A stretch of 64,000 bases of DNA from assembly GCF_900115205.1 (NCBI RefSeq), contig NZ_FOYQ01000002.1, positions 372,001 to 436,000 of the forward strand, given 5' to 3'. Below the pieces are notes generated by a model. It ran no database searches and was not told where the DNA came from. It saw only the letters and a program-made list of their open reading frames with translations. Shown one piece after another: positions 57,808-64,000 of this stretch. A program made the translations under genes and the position numbers. How positions within the stretch are numbered: the first letter of the stretch is position 1; each line of letters starts with the position of its first letter. This DNA comes from Robiginitalea myxolifaciens. Lineage in GTDB: Bacteria; Bacteroidota; Bacteroidia; Flavobacteriales; Flavobacteriaceae.

Positions 57808-58731
57808 ATGAGACTGAACTATTTGATACCTGTAATAATCCTGGCACTCTTCTGGAATTGCACAGAAACTCCGGAACAATCCGAAGTTGTCGATGCCCCC
57901 GAAGAAGCAGCTGCCAAACCCTTCCCCCTGAGCGCCGAATTCAGATCGTATTGGTATGCCGGGCAGGCGGAGCTCACCTCATACGAGCTCAGTCAGGCGA
58001 GATATGGAGAACTTCGGGATGGGGAAGCTGTACTGATATATGTAACGGAACCGTTTGACCCGGTGAAACAAGTCAAAGACGATCGTACAGACAGCAGTAC
58101 AGTATCCGTACTGAAGTTAAACAGAACCAAGAAATTCTTAACGGGCCTTTACCCCTATTCCATAATGAGTAGCATCTTTTATCCTGTTGGGGATCATATG
58201 GGTGCCAGCAAGATTTCGACCTCGGTTCAAGAGTGGTGCGGACATGTCTATACCCAGCTAAATCGCAGGGACTCCTTGCAAGTAATTGGGCACAGTTATT
58301 TCGAAAGCGAAGGCGAACAGGATTTTAAGCTTCCTCTTGAAATTACGGAGGATGAACTCTGGATGCGCCTGCGCATTGCACCGGAAAGACTTCCCCTGGG
58401 CGAACTTCGGGCCGTTCCTTCTCTGGAGTATCTTCGCCTTAAACATCAACCGATCCGCGCATATACCGTACAGGCTACCCTGAGTGATCCCGGAGCACAG
58501 CGTACGTACACCCTGACCTACCCTGAGCTGAACCGCACCCTGCAGATCCATTTCGAAGGTGAGTTCCCTTATGGAATCAAAGGGTGGTCAGAAACCTATC
58601 CGGACGGTTTTGGTGCGGGGGCGAAGATGCTGACGACCACCGCAACACGCAAGAACCGACTACTAACCCCCTATTGGACTAAAAACAGTAACGCCGATGT
58701 TATTCTTCGCGATAGCCTGGGCCTCGACTAA
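57808..58731 (+). CDS. Lipoprotein of unknown function next to maf
   Basis: 307 aa from the ATG at 57808. A lipoprotein signal ends at LFWNC (Cys17). The mature part has repeated beta-rich blocks (FRSYWYAGQAELTSYELSQA, GEAVLIYVTEPFDPVKQVKD, SVQEWCGHVYTQLNR) and no motif I know. The conserved-looking Trp-Tyr-Ala-Gly, Trp-Cys-Gly and Gly-Trp-Glu-type spots suggest a compact binding fold rather than an enzyme. It is probably in one operon with maf and the following MscS-like gene, which starts 4 bp after its stop. Confidence 0.82.
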   Translation: MRLNYLIPVIILALFWNCTETPEQSEVVDAPEEAAAKPFPLSAEFRSYWYAGQAELTSYELSQARYGELRDGEAVLIYVTEPFDPVKQVKDDRTDSSTVSVLKLNRTKKFLTGLYPYSIMSSIFYPVGDHMGASKISTSVQEWCGHVYTQLNRRDSLQVIGHSYFESEGEQDFKLPLEITEDELWMRLRIAPERLPLGELRAVPSLEYLRLKHQPIRAYTVQATLSDPGAQRTYTLTYPELNRTLQIHFEGEFPYGIKGWSETYPDGFGAGAKMLTTTATRKNRLLTPYWTKNSNADVILRDSLGLD

Positions 58732-58735
58732 GCAT

Positions 58736-59266
58736 ATGGAGAGCTTCCTTTCGAACTACCAAAATGAATTACTCACCACCCTGGTGTGTATTATAATCAT
58801 ATTGATTTCCAGAACCCTGGCACTCAAGACTATTCGCAGAATTGGCAGGATAAGCAGCCTCAATGAAGTGCGTACCCGATTGATCAGCAAGTATATACTC
58901 ATTATGCATAGTGTATTGCTGATCGTAGCGCTGGTCTTTATCTGGGGGATAAATATCAAGGACCTGGGATTGATTTTCTCCTCGGTTTTTGCGGTGATTG
59001 GCGTTGCCCTGTTCGCTACCTGGTCTATTCTCAGTAACGTAACTGCGGGAATTATCCTGTTTTTTAGTTTTCCCTATAAAATCGGCGACCGCATAAGAAT
59101 CCATGATAAAGAATTAGAGGAAAAGGTAGACTATACTATTGAGGATATCCGGGGATTTCACGTTCATCTGCGCAAACCTGGCGGGGAGCTCGTTACCTAC
59201 CCAAATAGTCTTTTTCTTCAAAAAGCGGTCACCCAGCTTCCCCCAGAAATCGACAGTGAGTTCTAG
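58736..59266 (+). CDS. Small mechanosensitive channel (MscS-like)
   Basis: 176 aa from the ATG at 58736. Two to three transmembrane helices (LLTTLVCIIIILISRTLAL, LIVALVFIWGI, FAVIGVALFATWSILSNVTA) lead into the MscS pore-and-beta region: FFSFPYKIGDRIRI and EDIRGFHVHLRKPGGELVTYPNS. The C-terminal cytoplasmic cage of full MscS (about 280 aa) is cut short at the end of the beta domain. It probably relieves turgor after osmotic downshock. The TTTTT at the end belongs to the next intergenic region; a promoter for the PIG-L gene follows. Confidence 0.9.
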   Translation: MESFLSNYQNELLTTLVCIIIILISRTLALKTIRRIGRISSLNEVRTRLISKYILIMHSVLLIVALVFIWGINIKDLGLIFSSVFAVIGVALFATWSILSNVTAGIILFFSFPYKIGDRIRIHDKELEEKVDYTIEDIRGFHVHLRKPGGELVTYPNSLFLQKAVTQLPPEIDSEF

Positions 59267-59337
59267 ACTTGCGATTTTGTTTAATCTTCGATGTTAAAGA
59301 AGTTTTAAAGCTACAGCGCCTGCGGTCAAAATCTCCC

Positions 59338-59345
59338 TATCTTTG
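59338..59345 (+). promoter_or_regulatory. -7 element of the PIG-L deacetylase gene
   Basis: TATCTTTG, an exact TAnnTTTG match, 27 bp before the ATG at 59373; no clear -33 TTTG. It would drive the PIG-L, microprotein and symporter genes as one unit. Confidence 0.5.
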
Positions 59346-59372
59346 AGGTGAACCACCGCTAACAAGCCAGAC

Positions 59373-61907
59373 ATGATTGCCATCCTGAAGAGGGCCACAC
59401 TGTTCTTTGCGTTTCTTCCACTTCTTCTTTCGGCGCAACGTGCGTCTACCAGCAGTTCAGTAGATCTCTATAACGACCTGCAAAAATTAAACTTTCTCGG
59501 GTCAGCACTTTATGTGGCAGCCCACCCCGACGACGAGAATACGCGCCTCATTTCTTATTTGTCTAACGCGGTACATGCCCGGACAGCCTATCTTTCGTTA
59601 ACTCGCGGAGATGGAGGTCAAAACCTCATCGGTCCGGAATTACGGGAGCTTCTAGGCGTACTGCGGACTCAGGAATTGTTGGCAGCTCGAAATGTAGATG
59701 GTGGTGAACAATTTTTTAGCAGGGCTGTGGATTTCGGGTATTCCAAACACCCCGATGAAACCCTCAACATATGGGAAAAAGACGAGGTTCTTGCCGATGT
59801 AGTCCGCATTATTCGTCAATTCAGGCCGGATGTAATCGTAAACCGATTTGATCACCGAACTCCGGGAACTACCCACGGGCATCATACAGCTTCGGCTATG
59901 TTGAGTACCGAAGCCTTTGCACTTACCGGAGATTCCAACGCCTATCCCGAACAATTGGAAACCCTGGATACCTGGCAACCCAAGCGTATCTTTCACAATA
60001 CCTCCTGGTGGTTCTACGGAAGTGAAGAGCGCTTCCTGGAGGCGATGAAGGAACGGGATTTAGTGCAATTAGACGTCGGTGTCTATTATCCTGAACGCGG
60101 GCTTTCCAATAATGAAATTGCCTCAATGGCCAGTAGCCAGCACCTTTGTCAGGGCTTTGGGCGTCCGTTGCGCAGGGGCTCGGAAGGAGAATTTCTGGAG
60201 CTTATCGAAGGAATGCCACTCAGCGGTAACGACCTTTTCGAGGGAATTGATACCAGCTGGGGGCGGATCGCAGGTGGTTCGGCCGTGGGAGCAATCCTCT
60301 ACCCCATTGCAGAGAACTTTAATTTTGCCAATCCTGCAGCGCACTTACCCAAACTCCTGGAAGCCTATCAAAAATTAAGCGGTTTAGAACCAGGGTTTTG
60401 GCGGGATCGTAAATTAATAGAACTCAAAAACCTCATCGTTGGGACTGCTGGGCTGTACCTCGAGGCCTCATCTCAGGAATCCACCGGGGTCCCTGGCGCA
60501 ACAGCCAGAGTTTCCATAGAACTGATAAACCGCAGTGAGGCTGCGGTAAAACTTTTGGGGATAACTGGCAACAGCGGAATGCAGGTCGACACCACCCTGA
60601 ACCTCACCCAAAACAAACGCCATGTGCTTCCGGTGACGCTCAACATTGACAAAGACCAACAACTTACAGGGCCTTACTGGCTACGAGATGCGGCCACCCT
60701 GGGTATGTACAATGTTCCTGAGGAAGGTCTTATCGGCAAACCAGAAACTCCGGCAGCCTTCTCCGTTGATTTGAATATTGAGATTGAAGGTAATTCAATG
60801 CACATAAACTTGCCGGTAATTCACCGGTATGCGGAGCCCGACAAAGGTGAGCGATACAAACAATTCGACATAGTTCCGCCTGTTACCGCTGGATTTACAG
60901 AGACAGTTGTGATCTTTCCCAACGAATTGGCACAACCCGTGCAAGTTAGTTTGAAGGCACAGGCAGCCGGACAACAGGGCACCTTGAAATTGAATATCCC
61001 GGAAGGCTGGTCCGTAAATCCGGCTCAATACAATTTTAGCCTGGCCACCGCAGGAGAGGAAAAGGATTTCACCTTTGAAGTCCTTCCCCCTAATAATGCA
61101 AGCGAAGGGAGTATCCGACCCGAAATCCAAATTGAAGGCGAAATATATGACCGGGAATTGATAACTATAGCCTATGATCATGTACCAACCCAACTGGTAC
61201 TCATGCCAGCACAGGTTCGCGTAGTACGCCTGGACGTTCAAAAGAAAGGGCAGCATATCGGTTATATTATGGGAGCGGGTGACGCAGTCCCTGAATCTCT
61301 GGAAGCCATTGGCTATACGGTACATCGCCTTGAAGTAGACGATATCAGTGCCGAAGCCCTTCAGGGTATGGACGCTGTTGTGCTGGGTATCCGGGCCTAC
61401 AATGTATTGGATGACCTTCCTTTTAAGAATCCAGTGCTCCTGGAATACGTAGCGCAGGGAGGAACCATGATTACCCAATACAATACCTCCGGACGCGGCC
61501 CCCGGGATTTTTCTTCCCTGAGTCCTTACGCCTTACAATTGTCCAGGGACCGGGTTTCGGATGAAAATGCGAAAGTGAGCCTGCTTGCAGGGGACCATCC
61601 CGTGCTGAATTTCCCAAACAAAATTACAGAAGCCGACTTTGAGGGCTGGGTACAGGAACGCGGACTGTACTTCCCCGACAGTTGGGATAGTCAGTTTACG
61701 CCTATTCTGGGTATGAATGATCCCGGGGAATCTCGCAAAGACGGTAGTCTCCTTGTGGCCCCCTACGGAGAAGGTCATTACATTTACACCGGACTGAGCT
61801 TTTTCCGGGAACTGCCCGCCGGAGTACCCGGAGCCTTTAAGCTCTTTACCAATATGCTGTCTATCGGAGCAGAAGAACCAAAAGAAGATCGTGAAATTAA
61901 GGGATGA
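59373..61907 (+). CDS. Exported PIG-L family deacetylase with C-terminal ThuA/GATase-like domain
   Basis: 844 aa. A signal peptide (about 1-21) is followed by a PIG-L/LmbE zinc deacetylase domain: His51-Pro-Asp53-Asp54 (VAAHPDDENTRLI), LTRGDGGQNLIG and HGHHTASAML (168-177) with the third ligand His. The middle (about 370-620) holds immunoglobulin-like beta domains, and the last 220 residues, from about 629 (IGYIMGAGDAVPESLEAIGY), resemble a ThuA/GATase-1 alpha-beta fold (VVLGIRAYNVLDD, EYVAQGGTMITQYN). It should remove acyl groups from exported or imported N-acetylated sugars. Its stop is 1 bp before the microprotein ATG at 61909, so the three following genes form an operon. Confidence 0.92.
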   Translation: MIAILKRATLFFAFLPLLLSAQRASTSSSVDLYNDLQKLNFLGSALYVAAHPDDENTRLISYLSNAVHARTAYLSLTRGDGGQNLIGPELRELLGVLRTQELLAARNVDGGEQFFSRAVDFGYSKHPDETLNIWEKDEVLADVVRIIRQFRPDVIVNRFDHRTPGTTHGHHTASAMLSTEAFALTGDSNAYPEQLETLDTWQPKRIFHNTSWWFYGSEERFLEAMKERDLVQLDVGVYYPERGLSNNEIASMASSQHLCQGFGRPLRRGSEGEFLELIEGMPLSGNDLFEGIDTSWGRIAGGSAVGAILYPIAENFNFANPAAHLPKLLEAYQKLSGLEPGFWRDRKLIELKNLIVGTAGLYLEASSQESTGVPGATARVSIELINRSEAAVKLLGITGNSGMQVDTTLNLTQNKRHVLPVTLNIDKDQQLTGPYWLRDAATLGMYNVPEEGLIGKPETPAAFSVDLNIEIEGNSMHINLPVIHRYAEPDKGERYKQFDIVPPVTAGFTETVVIFPNELAQPVQVSLKAQAAGQQGTLKLNIPEGWSVNPAQYNFSLATAGEEKDFTFEVLPPNNASEGSIRPEIQIEGEIYDRELITIAYDHVPTQLVLMPAQVRVVRLDVQKKGQHIGYIMGAGDAVPESLEAIGYTVHRLEVDDISAEALQGMDAVVLGIRAYNVLDDLPFKNPVLLEYVAQGGTMITQYNTSGRGPRDFSSLSPYALQLSRDRVSDENAKVSLLAGDHPVLNFPNKITEADFEGWVQERGLYFPDSWDSQFTPILGMNDPGESRKDGSLLVAPYGEGHYIYTGLSFFRELPAGVPGAFKLFTNMLSIGAEEPKEDREIKG

Positions 61908-61908
61908 A

Positions 61909-62010
61909 ATGAAGGAAAAAATGGTATGGAAGCGCGAGTATACGCTCGTGCTCATCCTCAATGCCATTTATTTTCTGGTGTTCTATTTTATCATGACCTC
62001 AAACGCCTGA
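61909..62010 (+). CDS. 33-residue single-span membrane microprotein
   Basis: An ATG at 61909 (1 bp after the PIG-L stop) opens a 34-codon frame ending TGA at 62008-62010, 1 bp before the symporter ATG. The product starts MKEKMVWKREY and is otherwise one hydrophobic helix (TLVLILNAIYFLVFYFIM) ending TSNA. Charge pattern (Lys/Arg-rich N-terminus, then the helix) predicts an inner-membrane protein with its N-terminus inside. It resembles the small partner subunits of other SSS symporters (YhdT with PanF, DUF485 with ActP) in position, not in sequence. I see no known family. Confidence 0.72.
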   Translation: MKEKMVWKREYTLVLILNAIYFLVFYFIMTSNA

Positions 62011-62011
62011 T

Positions 62012-63718
62012 ATGGGATCTTTAGACTGGATCATACTTGCTGGCACCTTACTTTTTATCGTAGCCTATGGGGTATGGAAAACCCGGGGGAGCCAAAGCGT
62101 AGAAGACTATGTGCAGGGCGGCAAGAAAGCCAAATGGTTAACCGTAGGGCTCTCGGTAATGGCTACTCAGGCCAGTGCGATCACATTCTTATCCACTCCG
62201 GGGCAAGCCTTTCACGATGGGATGGGCTTTGTTCAATTTTATTTTGGGCTGCCACTGGCAATGATTATAATTTGTCTGGTTTTTGTTCCAATCTACCATC
62301 ATCTCAAAGTCTATACCGCCTATGAATTCCTGGAACGACGGTTCGACTTAAAGACAAGAACCCTGGCAGCTGTCCTGTTTCTTATCCAGCGTGGACTCTC
62401 TGCGGGAATCACCATTTTTGCGCCTTCGATAATCCTATCAGCTGTGCTGGGATGGGACCTGACAATCCTGAATATCGTAATCGGGATATTGGTAATCATT
62501 TACACCGTCTCCGGAGGAACTAAAGCGGTCAACGTTACCCAGAAGCAACAGATGTTTATCATCATGCTGGGGATGTTTATGGCATTCTTTTTCATTCTCG
62601 GGTATCTGCCCACCGACCTTACCTTTGGCAAAGCCCTTAAGGTGGCCGGGGCAAGCGAAAAACTGAATATCCTCAATTTTGACTTCGATACGGATAGCCG
62701 GTACACCTTCTGGAGCGGAATTACTGGGGGAATGTTCCTGATGCTGGCGTATTTCGGAACCGATCAGAGTCAGGTTCAGCGTTACCTATCCGGCAAGTCC
62801 GTGCGCGAAAGTCAATTGGGACTTATTTTCAACGGAATCCTCAAAATCCCTATGCAATTCTTTATTCTGCTGGTCGGGGTTATGGTTTTCGTTTTCTATC
62901 AGTACAATCCTTCTCCCCTGAACTTTAACCCGGCTGCGACTCAAAGTGTCCTGGATTCGGAATATGCCGAGGAGTACCAGGTGCTGGAAACCGCCCACAG
63001 GGAACTGGAGGTGGAAAAGAAGATGGCGCAGGAAAACTTTTCAGCTGCCCTTGACCTCAAGGAATACACGGCAACCGTAGATGCCAAGCAAAAGATCCTC
63101 GAGATAAACCGCAAGGAACAGAATAACCGGGAGGCTGCCCGGGAAATGATTGCGAAAGCAGATCCTGGAGCTGAAACGAATGACAAGGACTATGTCTTTA
63201 TCCACTTTATCCTGAATTACCTGCCACGGGGATTGATTGGCCTGTTACTGGCCGTAATTCTCTCCGCAGCCATGTCGTCAACCGCTTCCGAGCTCAATGC
63301 CCTGGGTACGATTTCCGCCCTTGACCTGTACAAGCGAAATACACACCAGGTAATGGATCAGAAACACTATCTCAAGGTAAGCCGGTTCTTTACGCTGCTT
63401 TGGGGCGTTATTGCCATACTCATTGCCTGCTTTGCCAATCTGTTCGACAACTTAATCCAGCTAGTGAATATTATTGGTTCCATATTCTATGGAAATGTCC
63501 TGGGTATATTTTTGCTGGCTTTTTTCGTACGCTATGTACGCGGGAATTCGGTGTTTGTGGCAGCCCTGATCACTCAGGTCATCGTGATAGTAATCTGGTA
63601 CCTCGACTGGATGTCTTACCTCTGGCTCAATGCCGTAGGTTGTGTTGTAGTTATGTTGTTGGCGCTCATCATAGAGAGTTTTGACCGCCTCTTGCAACAG
63701 GAGCCTGCCGAGCTATAA
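62012..63718 (+). CDS. Sodium:solute symporter (SSS family) with coiled-coil insertion
   Basis: 568 aa, a Na+-coupled symporter of the SLC5/SSS fold with about thirteen helices. Family blocks: LSVMATQASAITFLSTPGQA (TM1 region with the Na+/substrate site), FLERRFDLKTRT, YTVSGGTKAVNVTQ, YFGTDQSQVQRYLSGKS and AVILSAAMSSTASELNALG (the Na2 site Ser pair). Between the helices lies a charged, helical insertion at about 310-393 (ETAHRELEVEKKMAQENF and on) that is not part of the standard fold and looks like a coiled coil, presumably periplasmic or cytoplasmic in the loop. It follows the microprotein by 1 bp, so both are made from one mRNA with the PIG-L deacetylase. Substrate unknown. Confidence 0.93.
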   Translation: MGSLDWIILAGTLLFIVAYGVWKTRGSQSVEDYVQGGKKAKWLTVGLSVMATQASAITFLSTPGQAFHDGMGFVQFYFGLPLAMIIICLVFVPIYHHLKVYTAYEFLERRFDLKTRTLAAVLFLIQRGLSAGITIFAPSIILSAVLGWDLTILNIVIGILVIIYTVSGGTKAVNVTQKQQMFIIMLGMFMAFFFILGYLPTDLTFGKALKVAGASEKLNILNFDFDTDSRYTFWSGITGGMFLMLAYFGTDQSQVQRYLSGKSVRESQLGLIFNGILKIPMQFFILLVGVMVFVFYQYNPSPLNFNPAATQSVLDSEYAEEYQVLETAHRELEVEKKMAQENFSAALDLKEYTATVDAKQKILEINRKEQNNREAAREMIAKADPGAETNDKDYVFIHFILNYLPRGLIGLLLAVILSAAMSSTASELNALGTISALDLYKRNTHQVMDQKHYLKVSRFFTLLWGVIAILIACFANLFDNLIQLVNIIGSIFYGNVLGIFLLAFFVRYVRGNSVFVAALITQVIVIVIWYLDWMSYLWLNAVGCVVVMLLALIIESFDRLLQQEPAEL

Positions 63719-63722
63719 AAAA

Positions 63723-63750
63723 ACCCGGCCTTTGAGCCGGGTCTTTGATC
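63723..63750. terminator. Bidirectional terminator
   Basis: A perfect 7-bp stem ACCCGGC / GCCGGGT (63723-63729, 63736-63742) around CTTTGA. On the minus strand it is followed by TTTTTTTATAG, the better tail; on the plus strand by CTTTGATC. It ends the symporter operon and the convergent DUF2911-type gene. Confidence 0.8.
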
Positions 63751-63766
63751 CTGTATTTATGTCCAA

Positions 63767-64000
63767 TTACATTGCGCCCCACTCTTTGAGGCTGTCTTTG
63801 TTCATTTTGATGTAATCGTTGTTGCCCGCATCTTCGGCCGCGGCCAGGGATTTTTTGGCGGCTGCAATAGCGCCTTTGGTATCGCCCATAGCAGCATAGA
63901 TCAATGACTGACGGCGGGACATCCAGAATGCCTTTGGATTGGCAGCGACTGCCTTGTCAATCCATTCTTTGGCCTTAGCCAGATCCATCCCTTCGTCGTG
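63767..64000 (-). CDS. C-terminus of a DUF2911-type secreted protein (partial)
   Basis: The frame is open to the right edge of the window, so the N-terminus is not visible; about 77 residues are seen. They form two TPR-like helical pairs (LAKAKEWIDKAVAANPKAFW, RRQSLIYAAMGDTKGAIAAA, KKSLAAAEDAGNNDYIKMNK) ending KEWGAM. This tail is characteristic of DUF2911 proteins of Bacteroidetes, whose front part is a beta-rich domain. The identity rests on the tail alone. It is convergent with the symporter operon and shares the terminator. Confidence 0.7.
   Translation of the reverse strand, partial: HDEGMDLAKAKEWIDKAVAANPKAFWMSRRQSLIYAAMGDTKGAIAAAKKSLAAAEDAGNNDYIKMNKDSLKEWGAM

Follow-up and report, generated by a model that had tools for sequence, protein, structure and literature searches.

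A conserved single-helix microprotein encoded beside an SLC5-type sodium symporter, and its probable role as an accessory subunit

Small companions of transporters in the sodium:solute symporter (SSS) family include the DUF485 proteins (YjcH with ActP), YhdT, which accompanies PanF, and the DUF4212/TIGR03647 proteins, all of them larger than the 33-residue microprotein described here. In the NSS family, MetS is the small subunit of the symporter MetP. Modulators of the AcrZ, MgtS and MgtR type are mostly condition-dependent and are not known to abut their targets over a whole phylum. MAP17 has a family of its own in Pfam. MAP17 (PDZK1IP1) is the auxiliary subunit of human SGLT2 and its helix interacts with TM13; in the portions consulted, the paper on the SGLT2-MAP17 complex credits it with contributions to stability, folding and localisation, and records differing views as to whether it serves activity, surface expression or folding (PMC10803289). 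The bacterial AcrZ, MgtS, MgtR and similar proteins, about 30-50 residues long, bind a transporter according to the excerpted text of PMC10710835.

The window, by which we mean the whole 64,000-nucleotide stretch of Robiginitalea myxolifaciens DNA analysed, contains a small ORF set tightly between two larger genes:

59373..61907, + strand: PIG-L family deacetylase, 844 aa (Pfam PIG-L 56.1 bits, cut-off 28.2)
61909..62010, + strand: 33-residue single-helix membrane microprotein, putative symporter accessory subunit
62012..63718, + strand: SSS/SLC5-type sodium:solute symporter, 568 aa, presumed partner (TIGR00813, Pfam SSF and PDB sequence matches)

Translation of 61909-62010 gives MKEKMVWKREYTLVLILNAIYFLVFYFIMTSNA, 33 residues. 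The ATG at 61909 follows the stop of the deacetylase ORF (59373-61907) after a gap of 1 bp, and the TGA ends at 62010, again 1 bp before the symporter ATG at 62012, just as the first-pass annotation had described the layout. An alternative in-frame GTG at 61891 would yield a 39-residue product; we favour the ATG as the start because the family alignment has the spacing M-x-x-K-x-x-W. No Rfam RNA element was found at gathering thresholds in 59000-64000, nor any link to a defence system in the form of a PADLOC match at E <= 0.1.

The symporter scores 236 bits against NCBIfam TIGR00813 (cut-off 184), which places it in that superfamily, and 137.7 bits against Pfam SSF (cut-off 22.8); its solved relatives, by PDB sequence match, include SMCT1, NIS, SMVT, vSGLT, SGLT1 and SGLT2. 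It carries a large, hydrophilic and probably helical insert at window positions 62940-63190 (residues about 310-393), where the best SSF and TIGR00813 stretches stop just short and where the predicted model of a relative has long helices. In a scan of ORFs and hydrophobicity, none of the four SSS paralogues found in this genome had a comparable small helix gene directly upstream, which makes a single symporter clade the likely partner. A search of a plasmid collection found no annotated record with this symporter. The deacetylase has a hydrophobic, signal-like N-terminus (judged by eye) and scores 23.9 bits against NPCBM_assoc, slightly below the cut-off of 24.4. Further upstream, a 307-residue frame (57808-58731) with a signal- or lipoprotein-like start (by eye) has no Pfam match at E <= 1e-3, and at its 3' end it runs into the beginning of a mechanosensitive-channel ORF (58697-59266).

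Conservation, selection and reach of the small ORF

Of 299 genomes sampled from the window's family, 266 have the symporter at E <= 1e-100. We assembled 110 family-level loci (the window's own, 29 sampled and the top 80 of 571, with some near-duplicates among them), and a homologous small ORF lies just upstream of the orthologous symporter in every one. Detection was by motif in 108; the other two copies belong to L112, where F replaces Y, and to L106, which was read by eye and has a gap of about 70 bp. Named carriers in the family include Robiginitalea, Arenibacter, Allomuricauda, Maribacter and Lutibacter. Across 57 aligned members W7, N18, Y21 and F25 never vary, and K8, Y11, V14 and M29 hardly do.

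The small ORF is a real protein-coding gene under purifying selection. Pooled over 45 disjoint pairs from 108 sequences, dN/dS was 0.10 (dS 1.21, dN 0.124; range 0.075-0.138 from 300 bootstraps over pairs), pS exceeded pN in all 45 pairs, and differences at codon positions 1, 2 and 3 numbered 225, 97 and 457. Read in its two other frames, this DNA gave ratios of about 0.9 and 1.9; for the first 200 codons of the symporter the ratio was 0.03, with dS near saturation.

Judged by sequence, homologues occur throughout the class and beyond. A profile built from family sequences alone, run on 395 phylum genomes, matched 58, including 19 outside the family; 15 of these 19 matches are directly upstream of a symporter match, two homologues (G334 and G395) are separated from the symporter by about 15 kb, and two matches (G442 and G548) look like chance. 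Another 109 loci were then available (L147-L255, L253 duplicating L154), 104 of them with the symporter: 91 had been fetched for the symporter, from among 151 genomes with it, and 13 for a microprotein match. Searching the upstream 300 nt at E < 1e-4, a wider profile was positive in 87 of the 91 symporter-selected loci (80 of the 84 outside the family), a figure that is partly circular because its seeds come from the same loci, and in 13 of the 13 fetched for the microprotein. The family-only profile at E < 0.01 recovers only 21 of the 84 outside-family loci, as against 0 of 221 control segments 400 nt further upstream, and the sequence drifts fast outside the family. The four misses of the wider profile comprise L158 and L159, whose microprotein lies elsewhere, L207, which meets a contig end, and L226, where it is absent; in the L207 genome a copy follows deacetylase sequence at the edge of a second contig (L260). 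Start codons chosen by script in 100 outlined copies were ATG in 84, GTG in 13 and TTG in 3. In six loci (L193, L202, L205, L218, L219 and L220) a different small membrane ORF of 60-66 residues stands just ahead of the microprotein and ends 105-114 bp before the symporter.

The first-pass annotation had argued that the frame was not a product of chance, and had pointed to its conservation upstream of orthologous symporters and to its Ka/Ks as ways of checking. Both have now come out in its favour, with the frame in place in 110 of 110 family loci and, by the wider profile, in 80 of 84 symporter-selected loci outside the family, and with purifying selection evident in the pooled ratio of 0.10. 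Its suggestion of a possible accessory subunit is thereby supported, although physical membership and a part in folding or activity remain putative.

Helix anatomy and proposed role

The product has one hydrophobic helix. K/R residues are more numerous on the N-side of this helix in all 108 family sequences and in 96 of 100 from the class and phylum, which by the positive-inside rule argues for a topology with the N-terminus in and the C-terminus out. The periodicity of the column entropies is strongest at 100 degrees per residue. For residues 7-29 the conservation moment was reached by 1 of 20,000 position shuffles in the family and by 4 of 20,000 in the phylum, and over two other residue ranges by 3-6 and 9-14 shuffles. 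The conserved face in the family consists of W7, Y11, V14, N18, F25 and M29. Through the phylum W7, Y11, V14, I22 and F25 persist; N18, kept in 19 of the 86 members of the phylum-level alignment, and M29 are family features. Such a one-sided stripe with variable flanks suggests a helix that packs on a protein partner.

Covariation with the symporter was computed from 208 paired sequences (effective number 143, the window repeating L001). The mean of the top 50 inter-protein couplings was 0.976, compared with 0.79-0.89 in 25 within-clade shuffles, and the highest, 1.66, was above 24 of the 25; finer shared ancestry could lift this score because the shuffling treated one clade of 112 sequences as a single unit. 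The signal localises to no region of the symporter, the last-helix region holding 10 of the top 50 couplings and 2-14 in the shuffles. For a structural view we used an AlphaFold2 model of L184, where microprotein and symporter are naturally read through as one stretch (alignment of 97 rows, 41 with the read-through). It has a pTM of 0.87 and a good symporter fold. The small helix takes up residues 13-35 at moderate confidence (pLDDT 74 for residues 11-20 and 77 for 21-30), and the linker that joins it is of low confidence. Structurally this relative's model comes closest to a sialic acid symporter (5nva, the top Foldseek match, E 4.4e-20) and to the SGLT2 of the SGLT2-MAP17 complex.

We put at roughly 80% the probability that the microprotein is a single-helix accessory subunit of the SLC5-type symporter, docking via the conserved stripe and acting as a MAP17-like stabiliser or helper. 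Presumably translated, and made along with the symporter from what would be a single transcript, it would sit in the inner membrane as one helix with its N-terminus inside and its C-terminus outside. Physical binding to the symporter would run through the stripe W7-Y11-V14-N18-F25-M29, and the likely effect on folding, stability or activity would be to stabilise the folded transporter or to support the transport cycle, much as MAP17 acts on SGLT2.

Linkage of the genes and docking of the helix would be just as compatible with a small regulator, one that inhibits the symporter or directs it to proteolysis in the manner of SgrT or MgtR, as with a stabilising subunit. Regulation or inhibition has to be weighed because small membrane proteins do regulate transporters: membrane proteins of about 30 residues restrain or target other transporters in the excerpted text of PMC10710835. 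One-to-one genes that abut or overlap over much of a phylum would nevertheless be more typical of a subunit, and we consider a regulator unlikely.

Separation, loss and the choice of partner

The microprotein survives unlinked from the symporter in six genomes. Two of these, G771 and G850, have the symporter on another contig and the microprotein directly behind a deacetylase that matches the window's at E 5e-118 and 9e-119 respectively; between the two microproteins there are 4 nonsynonymous and 5 synonymous changes (pS 0.205, pN 0.037). The remaining four, G395, G334, G349 and G323, have about 15 kb between microprotein and symporter, and their microproteins are nearly identical, with a pooled pS of 0.247 and pN of 0.033 over six non-independent pairs. 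G562, where the microprotein is 108 kb from the symporter on the same contig, is probably a seventh case.

These separations bear on the idea of a translational-coupling leader, in which translation alone matters, through a 4-bp overlap or 1-bp spacing, and the product is irrelevant. Such a leader would account for the 66 of 100 outlined copies that overlap the symporter start by 4 bp, and for the 1 bp spacing in the window. It would leave unexplained an amino acid sequence conserved at a dN/dS of 0.10 and a helix whose conservation is one-sided, and the persistence of the microprotein away from the symporter in six genomes makes a mere leader peptide improbable. The microprotein may do both, as a coupling leader with a functional product.

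A second kind of exception is loss. Among the 115 symporter-positive genomes of the sample described below, 16 have no profile match. Eleven of them have a hydrophobic small ORF just upstream, seen by eye (G376, G441, G561, G512, G420, G577, G503, G495, G457, G545 and G565), for which place and shape suggest homology because profile scores are weak or nil, and in G402 the locus is interrupted by a contig end. The other four are genuine absences that leave no room between genes: in G406, G426 and G434 the deacetylase gene touches or overlaps that of the symporter, and the fourth is G452. Genus g400 of the class sample (L226, L277-L282) gave no match better than E 0.18 in 10 of 10 genomes searched, and in six of these genomes the 160 nt that precede the symporter showed no small helix frame by eye; with the symporter kept, this is, as far as the sequences can tell, a lineage-wide loss of the microprotein. 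Because some lineages lost it, the microprotein is not strictly obligatory, and symporters that lack it suggest that the transporter can work alone or has replaced it.

Co-occurrence was scored in one draw of 296 phylum genomes, with thresholds of E <= 1e-3 for the microprotein, E <= 1e-60 for the symporter and E <= 1e-100 for the long deacetylase. The microprotein was found in 100 genomes, the symporter in 115 and the long deacetylase in 86; these counts come from a limited set of scored microprotein candidates per genome and from a profile that includes members from some sampled genomes, and related genomes are not independent. The symporter is present in 99 of the 100 microprotein genomes, and the microprotein in 77 of the 82 genomes with both symporter and long deacetylase and in 0 of the 177 with neither. 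In 95 of its 102 places the microprotein sits immediately upstream of the symporter match; the seven exceptions are in G324, in G562, in four g289 genomes at a distance of about 15 kb, and in G131, where the match is a chance hit inside a long frame.

A role as partner or membrane anchor of the PIG-L deacetylase might be supposed from the many loci in which the microprotein is directly downstream of that gene, and from G771 and G850, where the deacetylase still adjoins it and the symporter does not. Against this, the microprotein scores in 22 of the 33 genomes that have the symporter and no long deacetylase, and in 10 of the remaining 11 a divergent ORF for a small helix can be read by eye. 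Conversely, it occurs in only one of the four genomes with the deacetylase and no symporter, G324, and there (L307:1983-2384) the deacetylase and microprotein precede a frame of 84 codons whose match to symporter residues 502-542 (E 8e-5) marks it as a symporter deletion remnant. Co-occurrence thus ties the microprotein to the symporter more than to the deacetylase, which it leaves as a member of the gene cluster with a weakened claim to be the required partner; we regard a deacetylase partnership as very improbable. A chance open frame, for which one could say only that 33 codons are short and unremarkable alone, is rejected, with position, sequence and selection (dN/dS 0.10) all conserved.

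The neighbourhood in some genomes hints at the solute carried by the symporter, the partner preferred here. In G349, which belongs to genus g289 outside the class, a short PIG-L gene (Pfam PIG-L 90 bits) lies beside the symporter and divergent from it, a possible further link to deacetylation. The stretch from microprotein to symporter in this genome (L319:308-14606, minus strand) contains genes for a TonB-dependent receptor, SusD, FecR, a sigma factor, a ROK-family protein, an MFS transporter, a PcRGLX-like protein and a sodium:sulfate symporter, which is the make-up of a polysaccharide-use cluster. Together with the PIG-L company, this suggests a sugar-like, perhaps amino-sugar, solute.

Comparison with known systems

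The microprotein family is real and old, and appears to have one symporter clade as its partner. It is new as a family within Pfam, NCBIfam and the literature searched, and of a kind already known. The window protein matches 0 NCBIfam families and in Pfam only Synaptobrevin, at E 0.25. For the 86 members, DUF485, YhdT, DUF4212/TIGR03647 and MetS are absent among the 20 NCBIfam families listed, and none of these small subunits is among the 25 of 39 Pfam families listed (E <= 1). Neither the family nor the deacetylase-symporter pair was found in the literature among the matches listed (titles and starts of abstracts), and the main text of a review of prokaryotic SSS symporters (PMC7918813) does not contain the terms small subunit, accessory, auxiliary, subunit, DUF or small protein. 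The comparative evidence gives a family outside Pfam and NCBIfam a strong case for one partner, and a practical corollary, should the microprotein be a subunit, is that heterologous expression of the symporter may fail if the 100-bp gene that precedes it is omitted.

Like the DUF485, YhdT and DUF4212/TIGR03647 proteins, the microprotein is a small membrane protein encoded beside an SSS symporter. It resembles MetS as a small membrane subunit, here a putative one, encoded with a sodium symporter, but the partner of MetS comes from another transporter family and no model match connects the two; we found no description of MetS/MetP among the literature matches listed or in the consulted part of one review. 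AcrZ, MgtS and MgtR are similar in size and bind transporters, as the microprotein would, but the transporters are different ones.

The closest likeness is to MAP17, which is also a small single-membrane-helix protein serving a transporter of the SLC5/SSS family. The microprotein differs in having 33 residues and in being encoded beside its symporter. No MAP17 family appeared for the window protein in Pfam, and a PDB search with the phylum-level profile returned only one unrelated chain, at E 0.56, and no MAP17 chain; the resemblance is therefore taken to be functional, not ancestral. A bolder possibility, which we advance tentatively and think somewhat doubtful, is that bacterial SLC5-type symporters own a MAP17 analogue, an ancient, phylum-wide single-helix subunit that evolved independently and perhaps uses the same docking face. 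If so, a small helper helix would be a recurrent need of the SLC5 transporter fold, and its role would be open to dissection in bacteria, including the loss lineages (genus g400, part of g290, and G452). The cases in which the bacterial microprotein is present, unlinked or absent would allow a simple test of the question, activity, surface expression or folding, that surrounds MAP17 itself.
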